From: Herbaspirillum hiltneri N3
Lineage (GTDB): Bacteria > Pseudomonadota > Gammaproteobacteria > Burkholderiales > Burkholderiaceae_D
NCBI RefSeq assembly: GCF_001267925.1
Contig: NZ_CP011409.1
Span: 3,720,001-3,784,000 of the forward strand
Length of the DNA: 64,000 bases
Direction of reading: 5' to 3'
The translations under genes were made by a program, and so were the position numbers. The notes below the pieces were generated by a model, which worked only from the letters and a program-made list of their open reading frames with translations, was not told the DNA's origin and ran no database searches. Of the stretch, positions 43,832 to 63,282 are shown piece by piece; positions within the stretch are counted from its first letter, which is position 1; each line of letters begins with the position of its first letter.

Positions 43832-44791
43832 TTACACCGCCAGATGCACCGGTTGTGCGCCGCGCAAGCCGGCAATCAGATTGTCGACGGCGAGTTCGGC
43901 CATGGCGCGACGCGTTTCGTGCGTGGCCGAACCGATATGCGGCAAGGCCACGACATTGGGCAATTGCAGCAACGGAGAATCGGCCGGCAATGGTTCCTGT
44001 TCGAAGACGTCAAGTCCCGCGCCGTAAATGGTCTTGCGCTGCAGCGCCTCGATCAGCGCCGCCTCATCAACGATGCGTCCGCGCGAGGCATTGATGAAAA
44101 TGGCGCTCGGCTTCATCAGTCCGAACTCGCGCGCGCCGATGGTGCGCTCGGTCTGCGCCGTCAGCGGCAGCATCGGACAAACGAAGTCGGCCTGCTGAAA
44201 TAGTTCATCGCGCGTCACATACGTCGCCGCCAGCGAAGCTTCCGCCTCGGGATTGGGGCGCGTGTTGTGATACACGATCTTCATGCCGAAACCATGATGC
44301 GCCCGCCGCGCCACCGCGCCACCGATGCGGCCCATGCCGAGCATACCCAGCGTCTTGCCATGCACGTTGACGCCGAACAGCGACTCACCGATGCTGCCCT
44401 TCCATTTGCCGGCCTTGACGAATTCCGCCAACTCCACCACGCGGCGCGCGCTGGCAAGAATCAGTGAAAAGATCGCGTCCGCCGTCGCCTCGTTCAGCAC
44501 GCCCGGCGTATGCGCCAGCATCAGGCCGCGCTTGCGGAAATAATCGAGGTCGAAGTTGTCGACGCCGACCGACACCGTCGAAGCGATCTTGAGCAAGGGA
44601 GCCGCCTCCAGCAGGTCGTTGCCGATCGGCAAACTGGCGCCGATGATGCCCTGCGCCGTCGCCAGCGCCGCCTGGAACTGGGCGCGGTTGCCGGCGTTGA
44701 CCGTTTCGAAACAGGTGACCTCGAATTCATCGCGCAGGCGTTGCAGCAAATCCTCCGGCAACTTCTTGTATACGACTACATGTTGTTTCAT
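43832..44791 (-). CDS. kguD: 2-hydroxyacid dehydrogenase, probable 2-keto-6-phosphogluconate reductase
   Basis: The 319-residue NAD(P)-dependent enzyme starts at ATG 44789-44791 (MKQHVVVYKK). The Rossmann domain has GMLGMGRIGGAVARRAH, and a basic residue in YHNTRPNPE favours NADPH. The catalytic triad is visible: Arg in NASRGRIVDE, Glu in DVFEQEPLP, His in LPHIGSATHETR. On its own it would be called glyoxylate/hydroxypyruvate or ketogluconate reductase. Its place 19 bases after a sugar-acid kinase and the KguE-like isomerase supports KguD, which reduces 2-keto-6-phosphogluconate to 6-phosphogluconate. Last gene of the operon. Confidence 0.72.
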   Translation of the reverse strand: MKQHVVVYKKLPEDLLQRLRDEFEVTCFETVNAGNRAQFQAALATAQGIIGASLPIGNDLLEAAPLLKIASTVSVGVDNFDLDYFRKRGLMLAHTPGVLNEATADAIFSLILASARRVVELAEFVKAGKWKGSIGESLFGVNVHGKTLGMLGMGRIGGAVARRAHHGFGMKIVYHNTRPNPEAEASLAATYVTRDELFQQADFVCPMLPLTAQTERTIGAREFGLMKPSAIFINASRGRIVDEAALIEALQRKTIYGAGLDVFEQEPLPADSPLLQLPNVVALPHIGSATHETRRAMAELAVDNLIAGLRGAQPVHLAV

Positions 44792-44810
44792 TGGATATTC
44801 CCGAATGGCG

Positions 44811-45755
44811 TCAGGCGGAAGCGGCGTCGAGTTGTGCGCGCGTCGGCAGACCTTCCATGTCGCCCACCACCTGGATGGCGAATGCACCGATACGGTTGCC
44901 GCGCATCACGGCCTCCGGCATGGACAAGGCTTCCAGCAAGCCGCTGATCACGCCGACGGCAAAACCGTCGCCGGCGCCGACCGTGTCGACCACTTCCTTG
45001 ACCGCGACGCCGGCCACGATGCCTTCATCGCTGGCGTTGCGGAAGTAGGCGCCGTCCGCGCCCAGTTTGATGATGACTTGCTTGACGCCGCGCTCAAGAT
45101 AGAACGCGGCGATATCGCGCGGCTCGCTGTGGCCGGTCAGGATCTTGCCTTCACTCAGGCCGGGCAGCACCCAGTCGGCCTTGAACGCCAGCTCGTTGAG
45201 CTTCTGCGCCATGACTTCCTGCGACGGCCACAGCATCGGACGCAGATTCGGATCGAAGGAAATCGTCTTGCCGCGTGCGCGCATGAAATCCAGTGCGTGA
45301 TGCGCGAACGCCATCGTGGTCGGCGACAAGGCGGCGGCGATACCGGTCGTATGCAGGTGGCGTGCGCCACCGAAATAGGCTTCGTCGAAATCGACCTGCG
45401 ACAGATGACTCGCGGCCGAACCCTTGCGGTAATACTCGATGGCGGGATCTCCTCCATCCACGGCCTTGGCCTTGAGCTGGATCGCGGTGCGGAATTCCTT
45501 GTCGGTCGCCACGTGGCTGACGTCGACGCCTTCCTGGGCAACGCGCTTGCAGATGAAGCGGCCGAAGGAATCGTTGCCGACGCGGCTGACCCAGCCAACC
45601 TTCAGGCCCAGGCGCGCCAGGCCGATGGCGACATTGGTTTCCGCGCCCGCGAGGCGGCGCGTGTATTTTTCAACATCCGCGAAATCGCCGACTTCGTCCG
45701 CGACAAACAACGCCAGTGCTTCGCCGTACGTAACGACGTCCAGTTGTGTTTGCAT
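44811..45755 (-). CDS. kguK: PfkB-family sugar-acid kinase, probable 2-ketogluconate kinase
   Basis: The 314-residue ribokinase-type protein begins with VVTYGEALALFVADE and has RRLAGAETNVAIGLARLGLKVGWVSRVG (PfkB signature 1). The C-terminal anion hole and catalytic base are in VDTVGAGDGFAVGVISGLLEAL. The pattern is that of 2-keto-3-deoxygluconate and 2-ketogluconate kinases. It lies between the kguE and kguD homologues, so phosphorylation of imported 2-ketogluconate is the best inference; KDG kinase (kdgK) is the alternative. Confidence 0.72.
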   Translation of the reverse strand: MQTQLDVVTYGEALALFVADEVGDFADVEKYTRRLAGAETNVAIGLARLGLKVGWVSRVGNDSFGRFICKRVAQEGVDVSHVATDKEFRTAIQLKAKAVDGGDPAIEYYRKGSAASHLSQVDFDEAYFGGARHLHTTGIAAALSPTTMAFAHHALDFMRARGKTISFDPNLRPMLWPSQEVMAQKLNELAFKADWVLPGLSEGKILTGHSEPRDIAAFYLERGVKQVIIKLGADGAYFRNASDEGIVAGVAVKEVVDTVGAGDGFAVGVISGLLEALSMPEAVMRGNRIGAFAIQVVGDMEGLPTRAQLDAASA

Positions 45756-45793
45756 TACTTGTTCTCTCTGATGGTGTACGGCAGACGACGCGC

Positions 45794-46540
45794 CTAGGCC
45801 GAAGCCAGCATCGCCACGTAATCGCGGGTCATCGCTTCCAGGTCCTTGCCGATGATCGGGAATTCGATGGCGCGCTGCACGCCGCGCGGGAAATGGGAAA
45901 ACAGGCGGCGCCAGACGGCGTCGTCTTCATCGAGCGGAATCGCCTTGAGCTTGCCCTTGTCGTTCCACACGCCCTTGCAATGCACGTATTGCACGTGCGC
46001 CGCCAGCGTGCGGGCCGCCACTTCGGCATCGACGCCGCTCCAGCGCCAGTTGCCCATGTCGAAGGTCATGCCGACCGGGACGCCGGTGCCGGAACAGACG
46101 GCCAGGAAATTGGCGATCGATTCCAGTTTGCCGCCATGTTCGGTCTGGTCATTTTCCAGCAGCAAAGGCACGGGCGCCTGCGCGACGAAACGCGACCAGT
46201 CCAGCATGTTGCTGGCCGGCGAAAAATGCCCCAGCGACACTTTAAGGAAACGCGACTGCAGCTGTTGCGCCTCGTCCATCACCTGATCGAGTTCATCGCG
46301 CGCCAGCGAACCATCCTGGCGGAACAACTCGATCGGCGCCGAATACACCGAGAACAGCTTGTGCTTCGCCAGAAGTCCGTGCAGGTCCTCGAAATCGGGC
46401 AGCTCGACAAACAATTCCCGGCGTATTTCCAACCCCGCCGCACCGGCTGCGGCGACGATCGGAATCAGGTGCGCATGCCCGACCTGGCGCACGAAATCTG
46501 CGCCGTAGGCCGAGGCCGCAACCAATACGGGGGTCTTCAT
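45794..46540 (-). CDS. kguE: sugar-phosphate isomerase/epimerase family TIM barrel, KguE-like
   Basis: The 248-residue protein starts at ATG 46538-46540, overlapping the ABC ATPase stop (ATGA). It is an AP-endonuclease-2-type barrel: GLEIRRELFVELPDF, VPLLLENDQTEHGG, PVGMTFDMGNWRWSGVD (metal-binding Asp/His-like positions), VQYVHCKGVWNDKGK. In Pseudomonas, kguE is the first gene of the ketogluconate operon; its precise reaction is not settled. Order kguE-kguK-kguD is kept here, with the ABC transporter placed upstream. Confidence 0.7.
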   Translation of the reverse strand: MKTPVLVAASAYGADFVRQVGHAHLIPIVAAAGAAGLEIRRELFVELPDFEDLHGLLAKHKLFSVYSAPIELFRQDGSLARDELDQVMDEAQQLQSRFLKVSLGHFSPASNMLDWSRFVAQAPVPLLLENDQTEHGGKLESIANFLAVCSGTGVPVGMTFDMGNWRWSGVDAEVAARTLAAHVQYVHCKGVWNDKGKLKAIPLDEDDAVWRRLFSHFPRGVQRAIEFPIIGKDLEAMTRDYVAMLASA

Positions 46541-47271
46541 TTGATGTTGCCGGCGCCAACGAACTGGCGCGCTTCCGGCGTTTGCGGATCGGAGAAGAAT
46601 TCCTTCGACGGACGCGCTTCCCACACCTTGCCCTGATGCATGAACACGGTGAGATCGGCGACGCGCCGGGCGAATTCCATTTCGTGCGTGACGAGCAACA
46701 TAGTCATCCCTCCCCTTGCGAGTTCTTCCATGACTTTCAGCACTTCCTGCGTCAGCTCCGGGTCCAGCGCCGAGGTCACTTCGTCGAACAGCATGACCTG
46801 CGGCTCCATCGCCAGCGACCGGGCAATCGCCACGCGCTGCTGCTGGCCGCCCGACAATTGCTCCGGATAGGCGTCGCGCTTGTGATCGAGGCCGACCTGC
46901 TTGAGGACCTTGATCGCGGTTTCACGCGCTTTTTCGGTCGCCACTTTCTTGACGATGCGCGGCGACAGCATGACGTTCTCCTCCACGGTCAGATGCGGGA
47001 ACAGGTTGTAGTGCTGGAACACCATCCCGACATCCTTGCGCAGCTCGATCAGGTGCTCATGCTTGGCGGTGAGCTTGTGACCGGCGACATTGATGCTACC
47101 ACCATCAATCGTCTCCAGGCCATTGATGCAACGCAGCATGGTGCTTTTACCCGAACCGCTGCGGCCGATGACCGCAATAACCTGTCCGCGCTCGACGGAC
47201 AACGATATCCCATTCAAGACCTGGTTGCTGCCGAAGCTCTTGGTGATGTTCTCGATCTCAACGATGGGCAT
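46537..47271 (-). CDS. polar amino-acid-type ABC transporter, ATP-binding protein
   Basis: The 244-residue ATPase has Walker A GRSGSGKST, the Q-loop in VGMVFQHYNLFPHLTV, the ABC signature LSGGQQQRVAIARSL, Walker B VMLFDEVTSALDPE, and the H-loop TLLVTHEME. It belongs to the HisP/GlnQ group. It is encoded with two permeases and a binding protein and overlaps kguE by 4 bases, so the importer is tied to the ketogluconate genes rather than to amino-acid genes. Confidence 0.93.
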   Translation of the reverse strand: MPIVEIENITKSFGSNQVLNGISLSVERGQVIAVIGRSGSGKSTMLRCINGLETIDGGSINVAGHKLTAKHEHLIELRKDVGMVFQHYNLFPHLTVEENVMLSPRIVKKVATEKARETAIKVLKQVGLDHKRDAYPEQLSGGQQQRVAIARSLAMEPQVMLFDEVTSALDPELTQEVLKVMEELARGGMTMLLVTHEMEFARRVADLTVFMHQGKVWEARPSKEFFSDPQTPEARQFVGAGNIK

Positions 47272-47908
47272 GGAATTTCCTTTCTAGGGCAAAACTGAAT
47301 CGCGACAGCGGATAGCAGAAGATGAAATAGATCGCGGCGACAATCGGGAAGACGAGGAAGGGCTGGAAAGTCGCGTTACTGACGAGCTTGCCCGCCTGCG
47401 TCAACTCGACCAGACCGATGATGGAGGCAATCGAGGTGTTCTTGACGATTTGTACCAGGAAGCCGACCGTCGGCGGCAGCGAAATGCGCACTGCCTGCGG
47501 CAGGATCACATAGCGCAGCTGCTGCCAGCGCGTCATCGCCAACGCGGTCGACGCCTCCCACTGCGGTACCGGCACGGCTTCGATACAGCCGCGCCAGATT
47601 TCGCCGAGGTAGGCACTGGTGTAGATCGTCATGGCGATGGTCGCCGCCACCATCGGCGGCAGCTTGAAGCCATAGATCGCCAGTCCGTAGAACGACAGGA
47701 ACAGGATGATCAGCACCGGCGTGCCCTGGATGATCTGGATATACACCGCCGACAAGGTGCGCAGAATCTGCAGATGCGAGGTGCGCATCAGCGCCACGAC
47801 GAAACCGGCGGCGCCGCCGGCGATGAACGCCAGCACCGACAACAGCACGGTCCAGCGCGCAGCTTCCCACAAGAAGATGAACTGGTCCCAGGAAAATTCG
47901 GCAATCAT
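47258..47908 (-). CDS. polar amino-acid-type ABC transporter permease (second)
   Basis: The 216-residue permease has five hydrophobic segments and the HisM/GlnP-type EAA loop EASTALAMTRWQQLRYVILPQAVRISLPPTVGFLVQIVKNTS. It overlaps the first permease gene by 4 bases and the ATPase gene by 14. It forms the transmembrane heterodimer with the 47905-48603 product. Confidence 0.92.
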   Translation of the reverse strand: MIAEFSWDQFIFLWEAARWTVLLSVLAFIAGGAAGFVVALMRTSHLQILRTLSAVYIQIIQGTPVLIILFLSFYGLAIYGFKLPPMVAATIAMTIYTSAYLGEIWRGCIEAVPVPQWEASTALAMTRWQQLRYVILPQAVRISLPPTVGFLVQIVKNTSIASIIGLVELTQAGKLVSNATFQPFLVFPIVAAIYFIFCYPLSRFSFALERKFHAHR

Positions 47909-48603
47909 CGGTTCCCCCTTGGCCGCGCTACGCCAAGACGGCGGCGGCGTTTAAACACAACCAGACCGATGAGCCAGAAACTGAGGCGGAACAGCAACGC
48001 CAGCAGAATATAGAGCCCCATCACGATCAGGTAAATTTCGAAGCTGCGGAAGGTTTCCGCATCAAGCAGGTTGGCGCTCGCGGTCAACTCTTCGGCGGAG
48101 ATCGCCGACACCACGCTCGACGCCAGCATCATCAGCGTGAACTGACTGGCCAATGCCGGATAGACCTTCTCCAATGCGGGCGTCAGCACCACGTGCCGGA
48201 TCACCTGCCAGCGCGTCATCGCCAGCGCCTGCGCCGCTTCGATTTGCGAAGGATGGACCGCCATCATGCCGGCGCGCACGATCTCGGTCGAATACGCACC
48301 GAGATTGACCGTCATCGCCACCAGTGCCGCGACATTGGCGTCGACCTGCACACCCGCAGCGGGCAAGCCGAAAAAGATAATGAACAACTGCACCAGGAAA
48401 GGCGTGCTGCGGATCAGTTCCACGTAGGAAGTGACCGCAAAGCGGGCCGGCGCGGAACCGTGAATGCTCACGATCGCCCCGAAGATACCCACCGCCAAAC
48501 CGCAGATCATCGACAGCGCACTGAGCCGTATGGTGAGCAAAGCTCCCCACAACAGCTGGTCCATGTGCTGAAAGATGAACGCAAACTGAAAATCATAAGA
48601 CAT
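47905..48603 (-). CDS. polar amino-acid-type ABC transporter permease (first)
   Basis: The 232-residue permease starts MSYDFQFAFIFQHMDQLLWG. The EAA loop is IEAAQALAMTRWQVIRHVVLTPALEKVYPALASQFTLMMLASS. The last 20 residues are strongly basic (FKRRRRLGVARPRGNR). The gap to the upstream binding-protein gene is 251 bases and is filled by a long palindrome (48703-48855), which could make the binding protein more abundant than the membrane parts. Confidence 0.92.
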   Translation of the reverse strand: MSYDFQFAFIFQHMDQLLWGALLTIRLSALSMICGLAVGIFGAIVSIHGSAPARFAVTSYVELIRSTPFLVQLFIIFFGLPAAGVQVDANVAALVAMTVNLGAYSTEIVRAGMMAVHPSQIEAAQALAMTRWQVIRHVVLTPALEKVYPALASQFTLMMLASSVVSAISAEELTASANLLDAETFRSFEIYLIVMGLYILLALLFRLSFWLIGLVVFKRRRRLGVARPRGNR

Positions 48604-48702
48604 CGTCTACTCCTTGCCGATTCACTTGGCGGGTCCCATGGTAAGAACCCGCCTTGCCAAGCCCCGTCTTTTTAATTCAACGGAGATCAACGCAATGCAT
48701 CC

Positions 48703-48855
48703 AAACCTGTCTGCGATCAGTTGCGAGAGGCCGTCAGCTGGTGGCGGCCGGAGCGCAGCTCAGTTGAAACCCTTGGAACGTACTCAAGCACGTAAGGATT
48801 CCGAGCTCCGCCCGACGCCAGATGATGGTCTCGCAGCAGGATCGTTGGCAGGTTT
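48703..48855. repeat. ERIC-like imperfect palindrome, copy 2, inside the kgu/ABC operon
   Basis: About 150 bases with inverted arms AAACCTG...CGATC...TGCGAG and centre GGAACGTACTCAAGCACGT. The centre and flanks resemble copy 1 at 26206-26350. It occupies most of the gap between the binding-protein stop and the first permease start and overlaps the first base of the binding-protein stop codon. Confidence 0.78.
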
Positions 48856-49661
48856 TAGAAAACTGGCAGATTCGGCAGTGGCGAACCCGCCCATTTGCGC
48901 GAGATCGCATCCAGTTCGCCATTCAGCTTGACGTAGTAGATGAAGTTGTTGAGCCATTGCTGCAGATCGAATGCGCCTTTGCGAACGGTCATCGAGTTCG
49001 GTTGCACCGAGTAAGGGAACTTCACGTCGATCTTGCCGGCGCCGCGTGTTTTCACGATTTCGTTGGCCATGGTGTTCGGGATCGAGATCGCATCTACCTG
49101 GCCGCTCAGCAGAGCCTGTGTGACGGTGGAGTCATCTTCAAAACGGACCAGCACGGTGCCGGCCGGCGCCAGACGTGTCAGCGCAGTATCGTTGGTGCTG
49201 CCGCGCGAAACGCCGACCTTCTTCTTGACCAGGTCGTTCAGGTTCTTGAATTTGGACGCGACCGGACCGACGATGGACAACTCGAAGCCGCTGTAAGGAA
49301 TCGTGAACATCACCGACTTGGCGCGTTCAGGCGTCGGAGCGAGGGTCGCGGCCAGGAAGTCGACCTTGCCGGATTCCAGCGCAGGAATGCGTGCAGGCGG
49401 CACCAGCGGAACGATTTCCACCGGCAGGCCCAGGTATTTGCCGATCAGGTTGGCGACGTCGACGTCGTAACCGATCGGTTCGCCCTTGGCGTCAACGCTG
49501 CCGAACGGCGGTGTGCCGCTGACGACGCCGATGGTGACCTTGCCCTTCTTGATCAGGTCGGCCACGGTTTGGGCGCTGGCGCTGGCTGCCGCGCCGACTG
49601 CGCAGGTAGCGGCCAGGGTCAGCGCGATGAATTTGGTGCTCAACAGATTCTTGATGCTCAT
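48855..49661 (-). CDS. ABC transporter substrate-binding protein of the kgu operon
   Basis: The 268-residue SBP_bac_3-family protein has a signal peptide (residues 1-30, ending ASAQT). The fold signatures are GTPPFGSVDAKGEPIGYDVDVANLIGKYLG, the hinge VPLVPPARIPALESGKVDFLAATLAPTPERAKSVMFTIPYS, and the second lobe with DLVKKKVGVSRGSTND. The segment SGKVDFLAATLAPTPER matches the D-x-x-x-x-x-x-T-x-x-R ligand pattern of amino-acid binders, with Arg available for a carboxylate. Because it heads an operon with kguE, kguK and kguD, a sugar acid such as 2-ketogluconate is the inferred ligand. Confidence 0.85.
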   Translation of the reverse strand: MSIKNLLSTKFIALTLAATCAVGAAASASAQTVADLIKKGKVTIGVVSGTPPFGSVDAKGEPIGYDVDVANLIGKYLGLPVEIVPLVPPARIPALESGKVDFLAATLAPTPERAKSVMFTIPYSGFELSIVGPVASKFKNLNDLVKKKVGVSRGSTNDTALTRLAPAGTVLVRFEDDSTVTQALLSGQVDAISIPNTMANEIVKTRGAGKIDVKFPYSVQPNSMTVRKGAFDLQQWLNNFIYYVKLNGELDAISRKWAGSPLPNLPVF

Positions 49662-49823
49662 GGTGTAGTCTCCTTTTCGTCATCCCCTGCCCTGGATAAG
49701 GGAGCCGGATGAACGTCCTCGTTATAGGCTTGCGCCCGCTGTAGTACGACTGTCTACGTCTTTCTTACTGCTTCTTTTGCTGCTTTTTTCTGGGCAGTGA
49801 TGCATCGCTTGTGCATTTGATTT

Positions 49824-49843
49824 TTCTGGTATCGGTTCCAGAA
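49824..49843. promoter_or_regulatory. putative LacI/PtxS operator in front of the ABC-kgu operon
   Basis: Imperfect palindrome TTCTGGTATCGGTTCCAGAA centred on CG, lying between the repressor stop and the binding-protein start. Its right half GGTTCCA is identical to that of the operator at 51015-51030. Confidence 0.65.
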
Positions 49844-49847
49844 TTCT

Positions 49848-50909
49848 TTATAAAACCATGTCCTGAGCCAGCTTGCTCGAGCCGCGCGGAATCAGGCGGC
49901 CGTCCAGCAAAATCTCGCGACGCGGTGCGCTTTCGCCATTGATGCGCGCCAGCAGGCGCTCGATCGCGGCAAAGCCGATGTCGTAGGTCGGCTGCTCGAT
50001 GGTGCTGATGCCGCTGCCCACCAGCGGCGACCAAGACAGTTCATCGAAACACAGCAGACCGATGTCTTCCGGGAAGCGCAGTTTCATGCTTTGCAGCGCC
50101 AGCGCAATCTGCAGCGACACCATGCCGTTACCGGCCAGAATCGCGACCCTGCCGTCACCGTTCTGATTACGTCGGCGCTTCAGGAATTCGTGCACGGTCG
50201 TCGCCACGTGACCCGGCTGGTCGATGTGCACTTCCAGCGTCTCGCCATGGCAGTCAGGTCGTGTCGACATTGCCTGCAGGAAGCCGGCCTGCCGTCCCTG
50301 GCGCGAACTGACGCCCTGCAAGGGCTGCACCACCAGGCCGATATCGCTATAGCCGCTGCTCAGCAGATGCTCGGTTGCCATGCGCGCCGCGCCGACGTTG
50401 TCCAGTCCGACCAGGTCAAAATCACAGCCCTCGACGCGCCGGTCCAGCAGCACAACCGGAAACGCCGCCTGTCCCAATTCCTTCAGCGGCGTCACATTGC
50501 GCCCCTGCGTATTGAACAGCAGGCCTTCCACGCTGTAGGAATGCAAAGCCGCCAGCGATTGCTTCTCGCGCTTTTCGTCGTTGCCGGTATTGCACAGCAT
50601 CAGCGTGTAGCCGTGTTCCTGGCAAGCCGCTTCGGCGCCGTGCAGCACGGCGACCGAATACGGATTCAGGATGTCCGCCACCAGCATCCCGATCAGCTTG
50701 GTGCGCCCGCCCTTGAGGCCGCGCGCCATCTGGCTTGGTTGATAGCCGAGCCGGGCGATCGTGCTGCGAATCTGTTCGCGCAGGGGCGCCGACAAGGCGT
50801 CAAGTTCGCCGCCGAGATACCGTGAAATACTTGTCTTCGACACACCCGCCTCGCGTGCGACCTGGGCAATCGTGACCTTGCCCGCGCCGGCGCTGCGCAT
50901 GTGTTGCAT
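49848..50909 (-). CDS. ptxS: LacI-family transcriptional repressor, PtxS-like
   Basis: The 353-residue protein is taken to start at ATG 50907-50909; TTG 50939, GTG 50927 and ATG 50900 are in-frame alternatives. The LacI helix-turn-helix is KVTIAQVAREAGVSKTSISRYLGG, followed by the hinge helix YQPSQMARGLKGGRT (with the usual Leu in the hinge) and the periplasmic-binding-protein-like effector domain (IGMLVADILNPYSVAVLHGAE, VVLLDRRVEGCDFDLVGLDN, FDELSWSPLVGSGISTIEQP). PtxS in Pseudomonas binds 2-ketogluconate and represses kgu genes and itself. Palindromes with CG centres precede this gene and the ABC-kgu operon, supporting the same role. Confidence 0.75.
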   Translation of the reverse strand: MQHMRSAGAGKVTIAQVAREAGVSKTSISRYLGGELDALSAPLREQIRSTIARLGYQPSQMARGLKGGRTKLIGMLVADILNPYSVAVLHGAEAACQEHGYTLMLCNTGNDEKREKQSLAALHSYSVEGLLFNTQGRNVTPLKELGQAAFPVVLLDRRVEGCDFDLVGLDNVGAARMATEHLLSSGYSDIGLVVQPLQGVSSRQGRQAGFLQAMSTRPDCHGETLEVHIDQPGHVATTVHEFLKRRRNQNGDGRVAILAGNGMVSLQIALALQSMKLRFPEDIGLLCFDELSWSPLVGSGISTIEQPTYDIGFAAIERLLARINGESAPRREILLDGRLIPRGSSKLAQDMVL

Positions 50910-51014
50910 ATTGGATTTTTGTCTCACTCTACCTGCCAAATCGTTGATTGTTATCTACCGATAATCGATTGATTTGTGCTACGGGTTCCCAGGTTTCTTT
51001 TTTATGATGAATCT

Positions 51015-51030
51015 TTGGAACCGGTTCCAA
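51015..51030. promoter_or_regulatory. perfect palindromic LacI/PtxS operator upstream of ptxS
   Basis: TTGGAACCGGTTCCAA is a perfect 16-bp palindrome with the central CG step bent by LacI-family hinge helices. It lies about 105 bases upstream of the repressor start and resembles the published PtxS site TGAAACCGGTTTCA. Autoregulation is the likely function. Confidence 0.75.
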
Positions 51031-51321: not shown

Positions 51322-53436
51322 ATGTCCGTTAAACGCACCCGCACCGCCCTTCTCGGGCTGATTACCCTTGCACCGTCGATCCTGCTGGCGCAAACCACAG
51401 AGTCTTCCACCCCGGCGACCGTCGCAGACACGAACCAGTTGCCCGCCGTGAACGTGACCGCCGACGGCGATGGAGAAAACCGCTACAGCGCGGTGAAAGC
51501 GCAAGTCAACAAATCATCCGTGCCGTTGTCACAGACGCCGCTGTCCATTTCGGTGGTGCCGCGCGCCGTGCTCGACAGCCAGCAGGCCGTGACGCTCGCA
51601 GACGCGCTCAAGAATGCGCCTGGCGTGGTCTCCGGCCAATACGGCCGGCGCGGATGGGATGACCTGATCATTCGCGGCCAGGTGGCGTCCGACTCGCTGT
51701 ATCTGGACGGACTGCGCACTGCCGCCTCCAATCGTGTCGCCGAACAGCTGTTCGGCCTGGAACAAGTGGAAGTGCTGAAGGGACCGGCCTCACTGCTGTA
51801 CGGACTGGTGCTGCCGGGCGGCCTGGTCAACATGGTCAGCAAACGTCCGCAAGGCTACGACTTCGCCAATGCCGACGTCACAGTCGGCAGCCATGACTTC
51901 CGCCAGGCGACAATCGACCTGAACAAGTCGCTGTCGGAAAACGGCAAGCAAGCCTTCCGCATCAACGGCCTGATTTCCAATGCCAATGACGCGACCGACT
52001 TTGTGTGGTATAAGAACCGCTATATCGCGCCGTCTCTCTCGCTCGATCTCGGCGCGCGCACCGACTTCACCATCCTGACCAGCTTTCAGGAACGCGGCTA
52101 CATCCGCCAGCAAGGCCTGCCGCTGTCGGGATCGATCAACCCGAATCGCAACGGCACGCTGCCGCGCAGCCTCTTCATCGGCGAACCTGCGGCGCGGCCG
52201 TACAACGCCACCGAAACACGCCTGGGCTACGCGCTGACGCATCGCTTCGACGACGGCTGGACGCTGAACAACAACCTGCGCTGGCAACAGTTCGCGATGA
52301 GCGGCCAACTGGTTGCCAACAACGCGCTCACCGCCACCAGCCAGAATCTGACGCGCACCGGCACCGACCAGACCTACAATGGCCAGACTTTCACGATGGA
52401 CACCAACTTGCAGCGCAGCTTCAATACTGCGGCCGGCAAGCACCAGATCACCTTCGGCTCGGATTACCTGAACACGCGCGAAGACGTGCGCTCGTTCGCC
52501 TGCACGGTGACCGCGCTGAACGTCTATAACCCGGTCTACGGCGCACGCCTGGTCTGCCCCGCCACGCCGGGCACCAACACCTCGACCACGGTGCGCGATC
52601 TGGGCATCTACCTGCGCGACCAGATCCAGTTCGGCGACCGCTGGCAGCTGCTGGCCGGCCTCCGCCGCGACAACGCTTCCACCTATTCGGACAACATCCG
52701 CACCGCTACGCACACGGACAATCCCGCCAGCGCCAACACCGGCTCGGTAGCGCTGATGGTTGAAGTGTTGCGCGGCGTGCGTCCGTACGTCAGCTATTCC
52801 ACGTCGTTCTACCCGAACGCCGGCACCGACGTCGGCGGCAATACCTTCAAGCCGGAAACAGGCAAGCAGTGGGAAGCCGGCGTCAAGGTGGAACTGGATG
52901 AAGGCGTCACCAACCTGAACATGGCCTTGTTCGATCTGCGCCGCCGCAACGTGTTGCAGACCGATCCGAACAACACCACCTTCAAGATCGCGGTCGGCGA
53001 GCAGCATTCGCAAGGCGGGGAAATCGGCATCACCAGCGACTTCAGGAACGGCGTGAGCCTGATGGCAGGTTATTCCTACACCTCGGCCGTGATCAGCGAC
53101 GACGGCGGACAAAAGGTCACGACCAACGGTCAATGGCTGGACAACGTCCCGCGCCACAACTTCAACACCAGCGCGCGTTACCGCTTCAAAGGCGAACTAA
53201 CCGGCTGGGAGCTCAATGGCGGCGTGCACGGCCAGAGCCGCCAACGCACCAACGGCTATTCGCTGCCGGGTTACGTGCTCACCGACGTCGGCGTCGCCTA
53301 CAATGCCGCGCGCTGGCGCACCGCCCTGAACGTCAAGAACATCTTCAACACGCAATACTACGCCGGCGGCCTGGCCAATGCCGTTGCGCTCGGCGACGAC
53401 CGCATCGTGATGCTGACGCTGGGTTATCGCTACTGA
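51322..53436 (+). CDS. TonB-dependent siderophore receptor
   Basis: Outer-membrane receptor that imports ferric siderophores with TonB energy. The 704-residue protein starts at ATG 51322; the signal peptide ends near ILLAQ. A TonB-box-like LPAVNVTADG follows, then the plug domain (residues 65-170: SVVPRAVLDSQQAVTLADALKNAPGV, RGQVASDSLYLDGLR, EVLKGPASLLYG, GGLVNMVSKRP), and the 22-strand barrel ending in MLTLGYRY with a terminal aromatic. The family includes ferrichrome, pyoverdine and coprogen receptors; the ligand cannot be read from the sequence. A Fur-like site precedes it. Confidence 0.92.
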   Translation: MSVKRTRTALLGLITLAPSILLAQTTESSTPATVADTNQLPAVNVTADGDGENRYSAVKAQVNKSSVPLSQTPLSISVVPRAVLDSQQAVTLADALKNAPGVVSGQYGRRGWDDLIIRGQVASDSLYLDGLRTAASNRVAEQLFGLEQVEVLKGPASLLYGLVLPGGLVNMVSKRPQGYDFANADVTVGSHDFRQATIDLNKSLSENGKQAFRINGLISNANDATDFVWYKNRYIAPSLSLDLGARTDFTILTSFQERGYIRQQGLPLSGSINPNRNGTLPRSLFIGEPAARPYNATETRLGYALTHRFDDGWTLNNNLRWQQFAMSGQLVANNALTATSQNLTRTGTDQTYNGQTFTMDTNLQRSFNTAAGKHQITFGSDYLNTREDVRSFACTVTALNVYNPVYGARLVCPATPGTNTSTTVRDLGIYLRDQIQFGDRWQLLAGLRRDNASTYSDNIRTATHTDNPASANTGSVALMVEVLRGVRPYVSYSTSFYPNAGTDVGGNTFKPETGKQWEAGVKVELDEGVTNLNMALFDLRRRNVLQTDPNNTTFKIAVGEQHSQGGEIGITSDFRNGVSLMAGYSYTSAVISDDGGQKVTTNGQWLDNVPRHNFNTSARYRFKGELTGWELNGGVHGQSRQRTNGYSLPGYVLTDVGVAYNAARWRTALNVKNIFNTQYYAGGLANAVALGDDRIVMLTLGYRY

Positions 53437-60558: not shown

Positions 60559-60747
60559 TCGTACAAGGCGGCTTTATTCGTGTATGCCACTGTCGTCCGG
60601 GCATTCTTTCTGAGCAGAGAGCCGAAGGTCTGCTCAGGTATTCCATTTCTTACGCAGCCATGCTGAGGCCTCCCTGTCGCCATCTCAATGCGGCGGGACC
60701 GCTCAGCGCACACCACAATCTCACCCACTTGCAATAAGGAGGCACAG

Positions 60748-61512
60748 ATGAGTAACGACACCACTCAACCCCCACCGCGTCGCCACTTCCTGCGACAGGT
60801 CATCACCGTCGCAGGCAGCGCTTCCCTTTCTTCTCCGCTGGCCGTCGGCAGCGGCGCCGCCGCCGCCGTGGCAGTAACCGGCGCGCATGCCGCGCAAGAT
60901 CCCGCGACACCGGTATCCGCACCGGGCCTGATCGGATATGAATGCTTCAGCGCCGACGAAGCCGCGTTCACCGAAACCATGGTCAACGTGATGTGTCCGG
61001 CCGATCAGTTCACGCCCAACGGCGTCGACTGCGGCCTGGCGATTTTCATGGACCGCCAACTGGGCGGTGCCTACGGAAAAGGCGCTGGCCGCTACATGCA
61101 CGGCCCCTGGACGCAAGGCAAGCCGCAGCTGGGCCTGCAGCTGCCGCTCACGCCCGAGCAGTTTTTCAAGGCCGGCGTTGAAGCCGCAAATCGCCAGGCG
61201 CAAGGAAAATTCGGCAAGACCTTCGACCAACTACAACCGGCGGAAGCCGATGCTTTCCTGGCCGCGATTGCTGACGGCAAGGTCATCGATGAGGCGGTCC
61301 CGCTGGCAGCGTGGTTCAACGAGCTGGTCTACCCCTTGTTCACGCAAGCCTGTTACGCCGACCCGCTCTACGGCGGCAACAACAACAAGGTTTTCTGGAA
61401 GATGCTGGGCTATCCCGGCTTGCCGGCGACGCACACCCTCGACATGGTCAACTATCGCGGGAAGCCTTTCCCCGGCGCGAAAGATCCCAAGTCCATCCTC
61501 GACTTCAGCTAA
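60748..61512 (+). CDS. gluconate 2-dehydrogenase subunit 3 family protein (Tat-exported)
   Basis: The 254-residue protein starts at ATG 60748 after AAGGAGG. It has a twin-arginine signal (PRRHFLRQVITVAGSASL), with cleavage near AHA. The mature part matches the small gamma subunit of membrane-linked sugar and sugar-acid dehydrogenases (FSADEAAFTETMVNVMCPADQFTPNGVDCGLAIFMDRQLGGAYG). It carries no cofactor; its Tat signal exports the flavoprotein as a complex. It lies 9 bases before the flavoprotein gene. Conversion of gluconate to 2-ketogluconate is the inferred role, but related complexes oxidise glucose, fructose or sorbitol. Confidence 0.85.
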   Translation: MSNDTTQPPPRRHFLRQVITVAGSASLSSPLAVGSGAAAAVAVTGAHAAQDPATPVSAPGLIGYECFSADEAAFTETMVNVMCPADQFTPNGVDCGLAIFMDRQLGGAYGKGAGRYMHGPWTQGKPQLGLQLPLTPEQFFKAGVEAANRQAQGKFGKTFDQLQPAEADAFLAAIADGKVIDEAVPLAAWFNELVYPLFTQACYADPLYGGNNNKVFWKMLGYPGLPATHTLDMVNYRGKPFPGAKDPKSILDFS

Positions 61513-61521
61513 GGACTCACC

Positions 61522-63282
61522 ATGATTAAAAAACTGCAAAAGCGGACGGTCGTGATCGTCGGTGGCGGCCTCACTGCGGGCCTTGTTTCACGTCAACTGA
61601 CTGACCAGGGCATCGACGTGCTGGTATTGGAACGCGGCGGCGACCACACCAGCGGTGCCGAAGCCAAGCTGCCGTCGCAACGCGACGAATTGCGCTGGGA
61701 CGTGCGCCAGGGCCTGGTGCAAAAATGGAATGTGCAGACCTACACGCTGCGCCATTCGCGCAACGACACCTCGCTGCCGGTACGCTGGATGGAAGCCTTC
61801 CTGCCCGGTGAAGGCATGGGCGGCGCGGCCAATCACTGGAACGGCCACACCTGGCGCTGGTCGGAGTACGAACCGACCTTGCGCACGCACTACGTCAATC
61901 GCTACGGCGCCAAGGTAATTCCCGTCAATATGCCGCTGCAGGATTGGGGCGTTACCTACAAGGAAATGGAGCCGCACCACGATCTGTTCGAGAAGCTGTT
62001 CGGCATCTCCGGCAAAGCCGGTAACATCAACGGAAAAAAACAGCCAGGCGGCAATCCGTTCGAAGCGCCGCGCCGCGGCGAATATCCGCAAAAGCCGCTG
62101 GAGATAACCGAAGCCGGTTCGATCTTCCGGCAGACTGCCGAAAAATTGGGCTACCATCCGTTTCCCACTCCGGCCGCCAACTCCTCCGGCGTGTACACCA
62201 ATCCGGACGGCCAGAAGCTCGGCCAGTGCCAGTATTGCGGCCACTGCGAACGCTTCATTTGTGAAGCGCAAGCCAAGGGTTCTCCGGAAGTCTTGCTGTA
62301 TCCGATGCTCAAGCAGCGCAAGGGTTTTGAATTGCGTCTGAACAGCCATGTACTGGGCGTCAACTATGATCAGAAGGCCAAGCGCGTCACGGGCGTGCGT
62401 TATCTCGACCTGCTTAGTGGCCAGGAATACGAACAGCCGGCGGATGTCGTGGTGCTGGGCGCGTTCACCATGACCAACACCAAGCTGCTCCTGCTAGACA
62501 AGATCGGCACCCCCTATGATCCATCCACCGGCAAGGGCGTGGTCGGTAAAAACTTCTGCTACCAGACCACCTCGTCGGTGAACGTCTTCATGAAGGACCG
62601 CTGGACCAACCCGTTCCTGTCCACCGGCAGCACCGGCACGGTGATTGACGACTTCAACAACGACAACTTTGACCATACCGGCCTCGGCTTCCTCGGCGGT
62701 GGCATGATCAGCGCCAACATGTTCAGCGGCCGTCCCATTGTTGCACGCCGCCTGCCGCCGGGCACGCCCCGCTGGGGCACCAAGTGGAAGCAGGCCAACG
62801 TCGACTGGTATGCACACTCTTTCGGCATGTCGATCCAGGGCAGCTGTTATCCGAACACGGAGAACTTCCTCGACCTCGATCCGGTATACAAGGACGCTTA
62901 CGGCCAGCCACTGGTACGCATGACTTTTGACTGGCGCGACAACGAAACCAAGATGTCGGCATACGTCACCAAGAAGATGGAAGACATCGCCAAGGCCATG
63001 GGAGCCGACATCGTCGGTCCGGCGGTACCACGAAAAAGTCCGTTCGACATCCGAGCGTACCAGACCACGCACATCACCGGTGGCACCGCTATGGGTTCTG
63101 ATCCGTCGCACAGCGTCGTCTCGCCGCACTTGCAGCATTGGGATGCTCAGAATCTGTTCGTGGTCGGCGCATCGGTGTTTCAGCACAACGCCGGCTACAA
63201 CCCGACCGGCCCGCTGGCGGCACTGGCGCTGCGACTAGGCGACGACTTGGTGCAATACGTGCAGCGTCCACGCATGCTGTGA
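61522..63282 (+). CDS. GMC-family FAD dehydrogenase, gluconate 2-dehydrogenase-type large subunit
   Basis: The 586-residue flavoprotein has the FAD-binding start VVIVGGGLTAGLVSRQLTDQGIDVLVLERG and the second GMC region PADVVVLGAFTMTNTKLLLL. The cysteine cluster CQYCGHCERFIC near residues 236-247 is where related enzymes bind a [3Fe-4S] centre. The C-terminal catalytic part has HITGGTAMG and NPTGPLAALALRLGDDL, including the His/Asn active-site pair (SVFQHNAGYNPT). It has no signal peptide and is probably exported with the Tat-tagged small subunit. Electrons would pass to the cytochrome c encoded next. Confidence 0.85.
   Translation: MIKKLQKRTVVIVGGGLTAGLVSRQLTDQGIDVLVLERGGDHTSGAEAKLPSQRDELRWDVRQGLVQKWNVQTYTLRHSRNDTSLPVRWMEAFLPGEGMGGAANHWNGHTWRWSEYEPTLRTHYVNRYGAKVIPVNMPLQDWGVTYKEMEPHHDLFEKLFGISGKAGNINGKKQPGGNPFEAPRRGEYPQKPLEITEAGSIFRQTAEKLGYHPFPTPAANSSGVYTNPDGQKLGQCQYCGHCERFICEAQAKGSPEVLLYPMLKQRKGFELRLNSHVLGVNYDQKAKRVTGVRYLDLLSGQEYEQPADVVVLGAFTMTNTKLLLLDKIGTPYDPSTGKGVVGKNFCYQTTSSVNVFMKDRWTNPFLSTGSTGTVIDDFNNDNFDHTGLGFLGGGMISANMFSGRPIVARRLPPGTPRWGTKWKQANVDWYAHSFGMSIQGSCYPNTENFLDLDPVYKDAYGQPLVRMTFDWRDNETKMSAYVTKKMEDIAKAMGADIVGPAVPRKSPFDIRAYQTTHITGGTAMGSDPSHSVVSPHLQHWDAQNLFVVGASVFQHNAGYNPTGPLAALALRLGDDLVQYVQRPRML

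Follow-up and report, generated by a model that had tools for sequence, protein, structure and literature searches.

Utilization of 2-ketogluconate (2KG) in Pseudomonas is encoded by the kgu operon (ptxS, kguE, kguK, kguT and kguD), which in P. aeruginosa PA7 is arranged as ptxS-kguE-kguK-kguT-kguD, with KguT, a 2KG permease of the major facilitator superfamily (MFS), lying between KguK and KguD. Also related are the polar-amino-acid-type (PAAT) ATP-binding cassette (ABC) importers, which genome annotation routinely labels as transporters of amino acids. By inspecting a 64,000-nt stretch of Herbaspirillum hiltneri N3 (NZ_CP011409.1, positions 3,720,001 to 3,784,000; hereafter the window, in whose coordinates all features are given), we found by the open reading frame (ORF) list and Pfam matches a LacI-family regulator gene and seven further minus-strand genes, running from 50909 down to 43832. 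Judged from the sequence, these very probably constitute a 2KG operon in which a PAAT-type ABC importer of 2KG has replaced KguT. Both the operon type and the transporter class would then be known ones, the ligand being one not usually assigned to that class; no description of such an arrangement was found in the open-access (PMC) literature.

The first-pass annotation had claimed a LacI regulator followed by seven minus-strand genes, and eight ORFs were indeed recovered at or within this interval, with their starts refined by eye. The PtxS-like regulator (49848-50909, start at about 50909; Pfam LacI and Peripla_BP_3) is separated by the transport genes from kguE (45794-46540), which encodes a TIM-barrel isomerase/epimerase-like protein with an AP_endonuc_2 match under the curated cut-off. 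The sole PDB match of this protein at E 0.01 is 1yx1 (E 3.6e-55), that is, PA2260 of P. aeruginosa, which we take to be kguE. Next are kguK (44811-45755; PF00294), a predicted PfkB-family 2KG kinase gene, and kguD (43832-44791; PF02826/PF00389), predicted to encode a 2-keto-6-phosphogluconate reductase of the 2-hydroxyacid dehydrogenase type. Compared with the PA7 kgu locus (L092), KguE, KguK, KguD and the regulator are 42%, 54%, 58% and 47% identical, respectively. The kguE, kguK and kguD orthologs thus stand together in one operon in the PA7 order, adjoined by a PtxS-like gene and a palindromic operator, and the earlier assignment to the kgu type holds on the match of KguE to PA2260, on synteny and identity with PA7, and on the PtxS-type operators described below. 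Unlike the Pseudomonas operon, this one has no KguT; kguK and kguD are only 19 nt apart where PA7 has KguT, and four ABC genes lie between the regulator and kguE. The window operon is therefore a variant rather than a classical kgu operon. It could be argued that the whole operon serves a substrate other than that of Pseudomonas kgu, its enzymes being paralogs with shifted specificity, as KguE and the regulator are just 42% and 47% identical to their PA7 counterparts and the functions are assigned by sequence. We regard this as quite improbable, because the gene set and the operator type are the same as in Pseudomonas, and the Herbaspirillum enzymes group with those of KguT-type operons in an unrooted tree (see below).

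The transport genes encode a substrate-binding protein (SBP) of the SBP_bac_3 (PAAT) type, the proposed 2KG binder (48855-49661; PF00497, E 2.4e-32), permease A (47905-48603; PF00528), permease B (47258-47908; PF00528, BPD_transp_1) and an ATPase (46537-47271; PF00005, ABC_tran), all on the minus strand. Their nearest NCBIfam models are mostly polar-amino-acid ones, among which TIGR01726 (HEQRo_perm_3TM) alone passes its cut-off, in both permeases; the nearest models of the ATPase (GlnQ, TcyN and EhuA) are all below cut-off. An SBP_bac_3 binding protein, HEQRo-type permeases and a GlnQ/HisP-like ATPase place the system in the PAAT family, and it shares these components and the SBP fold with the LAO/HisJ, GlnH and cystine-type importers, but differs from them in its linkage to sugar-acid genes and in having Pro or Ser in place of the Asp that binds the amino group. 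The genes are tightly packed, with overlaps of 4 nt between permeases A and B, 14 nt between permease B and the ATPase, and 4 nt between the ATPase and kguE, the last confirming the stop/start overlap reported previously at the ABC/kguE border; gaps of 251 and 38 nt separate the SBP gene from permease A and kguE from kguK. Since an amino-acid-type importer occupies the place of KguT, it probably takes up 2KG.

To quantify the partition of the two transporters, kguE loci were scored for transporter genes of at least 45% identity on the same strand within 6 kb. The 106 loci came from separate searches (6 + 80 + 20; the window itself was not counted), in which the 80 were the best 80 of 586 relatives, mostly Pseudomonas, and the sample is therefore weighted to Pseudomonas and Herbaspirillum, with the same genome possibly counted twice in places. 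KguT was found in 66 loci, all four ABC genes in 30, and an ATPase gene beside kguE at a contig end in three (L020, L143 and L145); seven loci had neither transporter and none had both. That the ABC genes recur beside kguE in 30 of 106 loci indicates an arrangement more than chance, and the first-pass statement that the importer stands instead of KguT is upheld both by the lack of loci with both and by the finding that the MFS relatives of KguT in the window genome are distant only. A search of this genome for a separate kguT gave no close relative: the best KguT relative was 31% identical, full-length KguT-like MFS matches did not exceed 33%, and a single short one reached 37%. For six KguT-type loci, KguT was 75-88% identical to the nearest of three references.

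The nearest named genomes, among the best 80 of 586 relatives, are Herbaspirillum, and the related Oxalobacteraceae loci (L008, L015-L028, L030 and L032; n = 17) comprised 16 with the complete importer and one cut. In a second Burkholderiales family (f49), kguE was present in 16 of 120 genomes, 13 of them with the complete importer, two cut with the ATPase gene beside kguE and showing no SBP, and one without the importer (L147). The gene order in f49 is permease A-permease B-SBP-ATPase, with the exception of L152, where the SBP comes first as in Oxalobacteraceae. A further search, which yielded the f49 genome G1000, gave 24 matches, the gene layout being read for 10 of them and 14 being left out. 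With the exception of L017, kguK lies on the same side in every uncut ABC locus whose layout was read. Searching the order Burkholderiales with the SBP matched 25 of 300 genomes at E 1e-40; SBP rows within the two kgu-linked clades came from the window genome and from G178, G171, G294, G207 and G267, and kguK adjoins the importer in all six. Among the importers without kguE, kguK and kguD are kept in G207 and G267 (L214 and L232) and kguK alone in G294 (L212). All SBP and KguE relatives were drawn from genome searches only. An ordinary amino acid importer that lies in the operon by chance would agree with the nearest solved structures, which are mostly amino acid binders, but can be given hardly any weight in view of an association that extends over two families and more, both gene orders and both importer clades, of the exclusion of KguT, of the overlap with kguE, and of the missing amino-binding Asp.

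Operators point in the same direction. In Pseudomonas, the 14-bp site of PtxS is reported to be TGAAACCGGTTTCA (PMC11678583 and PMC5902321). The window carries a perfect palindrome of this type, TGGAACCGGTTCCA, upstream of the regulator gene at 51016-51029, one base short of the end at 51030 given in the first-pass annotation, and between the regulator and SBP genes a second PtxS-type operator, TGGAACCGATACCA, at 49827-49840 on the minus strand. In the whole genome (4.97 Mb), TGGAACCGRTWCCA occurs exactly only at these two sites. The first operator is exact in 15 of the 17 related Oxalobacteraceae loci, L020 and L032 being cut there, and the second intergenic operator is present with at most two mismatches in 15 of the 17, L020 being cut. 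Of the 14 uncut ABC loci of f49 (including G1000), 10 have an exact TGAAACCGGTTTCA in front of the first importer gene, and the other four have a site with one mismatch there. The importer genes therefore stand at the start of a PtxS operon.

The binding protein was modelled with confidence by AlphaFold (AF2; pLDDT 91, pTM 0.81). The structures that match this model best belong for the most part to PAAT-type binding proteins and include LAO mutants at positions 69, 70, 72, 77 and 161, which we presume to contact the ligand. In PAAT binding proteins an Arg binds the carboxylate and an Asp binds the amino group of the ligand. Alignment with an ancestral arginine binder showed that this Arg is kept (Arg113), while the Asp, presumably the one at LAO 161, is replaced by Pro195, so that the window SBP does not have the Arg-Asp pair. 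In the 21 kgu-linked SBP rows, which represent the window and 18 of the 30 loci with the complete importer, the Arg is kept in 21/21, and the Asp position is Pro in 8 and Ser in 13, Ser being found in the second clade; an additional row from L150 (14801-16102), which has the Asp, was dropped as a different SBP outside the operon. Clade A (8 rows) has 18 fixed or nearly fixed residues in common with clade B (16 rows), each being present in <40% of 28 relatives, and these include Ala108, which by our reading aligns with LAO Ser72. The fold also resembles those of SocA, NocT and OccJ, binders of opines or deoxyfructosyl amino acids, whose ligands go beyond plain amino acids. The ligands of these three contain an amino acid part, but 2KG does not.

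Several observations weigh against a 2KG importer in place of KguT. For the binding site, the remaining SBPs of the window genome gave 16 rows (from 19 other PF00497 matches, 18 of them fetched, with no row for L177 and L179), of which seven have Asp or Glu at this position and nine have no acidic residue, two of the nine being poorly aligned. The missing Asp was consequently dropped as a mark of kgu-linked SBPs, since this control shows its loss to be common; it is compatible evidence only, and, being absent in many other SBP_bac_3 proteins, the Asp hardly defines the PAAT family. The operator is not enriched by count: the window has two sites with at most two mismatches versus zero to four in ten Markov windows, and the genome has six matches with one mismatch versus 20 for the reversed control; L019, besides, has no second intergenic operator at two mismatches. 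The weight of the operators therefore rests on their position and conservation. As to gene content, the seven kguE loci with neither transporter are L009, L029, L054, L062, L069, L147 and L160, and L017, a metagenome-assembled genome labelled Duganella, has the regulator, the importer and kguE followed by an ETF gene, with no kguK or kguD, a state that would reflect gene loss or misassembly. Finally, the window genome contains 22 KguT-like MFS matches, one of which could carry 2KG.

The first-pass annotation had named clustering of the kgu-linked SBPs as a supporting sign, and such clustering was found, in two clades. In a tree of permeases and ATPase (33 loci, those of 40 that had all three importer proteins), clade A (Oxalobacteraceae and L152) was separate from clade B (f49/f4) and joined the L210/L215 sugar-acid importers of Herbaspirillum and three others at 100/98. 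When clades A and B were constrained together, the approximately unbiased test gave a borderline result for the permeases and ATPase (p-AU 0.051) and, for the SBP, no rejection of a common origin (p-AU 0.193), both tests being applied to clades named after a first tree and in the presence of long branches. The SBP tree omitted L181, L182, L206 and L208 as duplicates and L176 and L178 as poorly aligned, and its test further omitted the distant L163, L165, L166, L173, L174 and L175 and the extra L150 row. We therefore favour, without regarding it as proven, two separate recruitments of importer clades, so that the replacement of KguT probably involved more than one recruitment. An unrooted tree of the enzymes (32 loci) places the Herbaspirillum rows together with all those of KguT type (100/100), nearest to them being one row of Competibacteraceae and one of Pseudogulbenkiania (95/92 and 100/99), and the f49 enzymes form a separate clade (100/100) that includes L152. 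L152 thus combines f49-type enzymes with an importer of clade A that is 62-71% identical to that of the window, and constraining its enzymes with those of Herbaspirillum was rejected (p-AU 5e-89). Importers and enzymes have been exchanged between lineages as modules, which argues for their working together.

A related PAAT importer is encoded elsewhere in the window genome (L210, contig positions 443000-458000), next to genes for a galactarate/altronate-type dehydratase, AraD1, a FAH-family protein, an SDR and an SMP-30 lactonase, and is probably another sugar-acid importer, judging from these neighbours. Like the window importer, L210 and L215 adjoin sugar-acid genes, but they are linked to other enzymes and a LysR regulator, and are 45% (SBP), 52-56% (permeases) and 65% (ATPase) identical to the nearest reference. 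A further member of this PAAT subfamily, in G204 (L230/L234), is separated by about 3.9 kb from a gene for a KguK-like kinase (56% identical) on the same strand, with no kguE or kguD matches, a possible third link to sugar acids. On balance, we lean towards a PAAT subfamily that shifted to sugar acids, with two clades separately recruited into 2KG operons in the stead of KguT and a related one in another sugar-acid pathway of the same genome, the binding site keeping the Arg for the carboxylate and giving up the contacts to the amino group.

Presuming a 2KG importer, we infer the substrate, affinity, induction and each reaction as follows. 2KG would come from neighbours outside the cell or from the cell's own periplasmic gluconate dehydrogenase acting on gluconate, and would be captured by the SBP, whereupon the ATPase and both permeases would pump it inward, presumably with the high affinity expected from the transporter class. 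KguK would then phosphorylate 2KG, KguD would reduce the phosphorylated product to 6-phosphogluconate, and Edd would channel this into the Entner-Doudoroff pathway, while the PtxS-like repressor would control the operon as well as its own gene and be released upon binding 2KG. Genes for a gluconate dehydrogenase-like set (small subunit, GMC subunit and cytochrome c) are present in the genome, and the bacterium could therefore convert gluconate to 2KG in its periplasm, or else import that of its neighbours; the genome also has a strong edd match, and no match to TIGR03074, the model for the pyrroloquinoline quinone (PQQ) membrane dehydrogenase. PtxS control of gluconate dehydrogenase is reported for Pseudomonas (PMC5902321), and was discarded for the window genome, which has no exact operator match for it. 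A second Gluconate_2-dh3 and GMC oxidoreductase pair lies in the window at 60688-63282, with no cytochrome c gene recognised alongside; a link of this pair to the kgu operon was considered and rejected, no operator being present there within two mismatches and no other sign of a link being found.

The main cargo of the importer of a kgu operon may instead be gluconate, 5-ketogluconate or another aldonate, or a mixture of such compounds; 2KG would then be secondary or formed internally. This is suggested by the KguE reaction, which is reported as unassigned (PMC11678583), by the importers that occur with kguK but without kguE, or without kguD as well (L214, L232 and L212), and by the related importer L210, which sits with another sugar-acid gene set. 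We nevertheless consider it unlikely, as the operators match the site reported for the 2KG-responsive PtxS, kguK keeps its side in all uncut ABC loci whose layout was read but L017, and the gene missing from the operon is that for KguT, a 2KG transporter. Should this importer clade carry 2KG, the genomes that contain it would be misannotated and would appear to pathway tools to lack a 2KG transporter, while the PAAT family would gain a ligand without any amino group. The operon would also offer a naturally occurring swap of an MFS permease for an ATP-driven importer, and such an exchange fits the scavenging of scarce 2KG by a bacterium without a TIGR03074 match in its genome.

Other carriers were seen near kguE in Paenibacillus (L054, an ABC set with SBP_bac_1), in Bacillus (L069, TRAP genes) and in Competibacteraceae (L029, DctP and GntP); the ORF lists of L147 and L009 were read for another transporter and none was identified, their ORFs not being compared with families. 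The operon adjoins a divergent gene for a TonB-dependent siderophore receptor (51322-53436). Within the operon, the region between the SBP and permease A genes (48604-48854, minus strand) is structured, with a fold z-score of −4.03 versus shuffles, and may raise the expression of the SBP over that of the permeases. Sixteen related SBP-permease gaps (79-262 nt), variable in sequence, gave folding energies of −37 to −131 kcal/mol with no shuffle control. Second SBP copies in tandem were found in three Herbaspirillum loci (L018, L019 and L021), and permease A is duplicated in tandem in H. lusitanum (L028).

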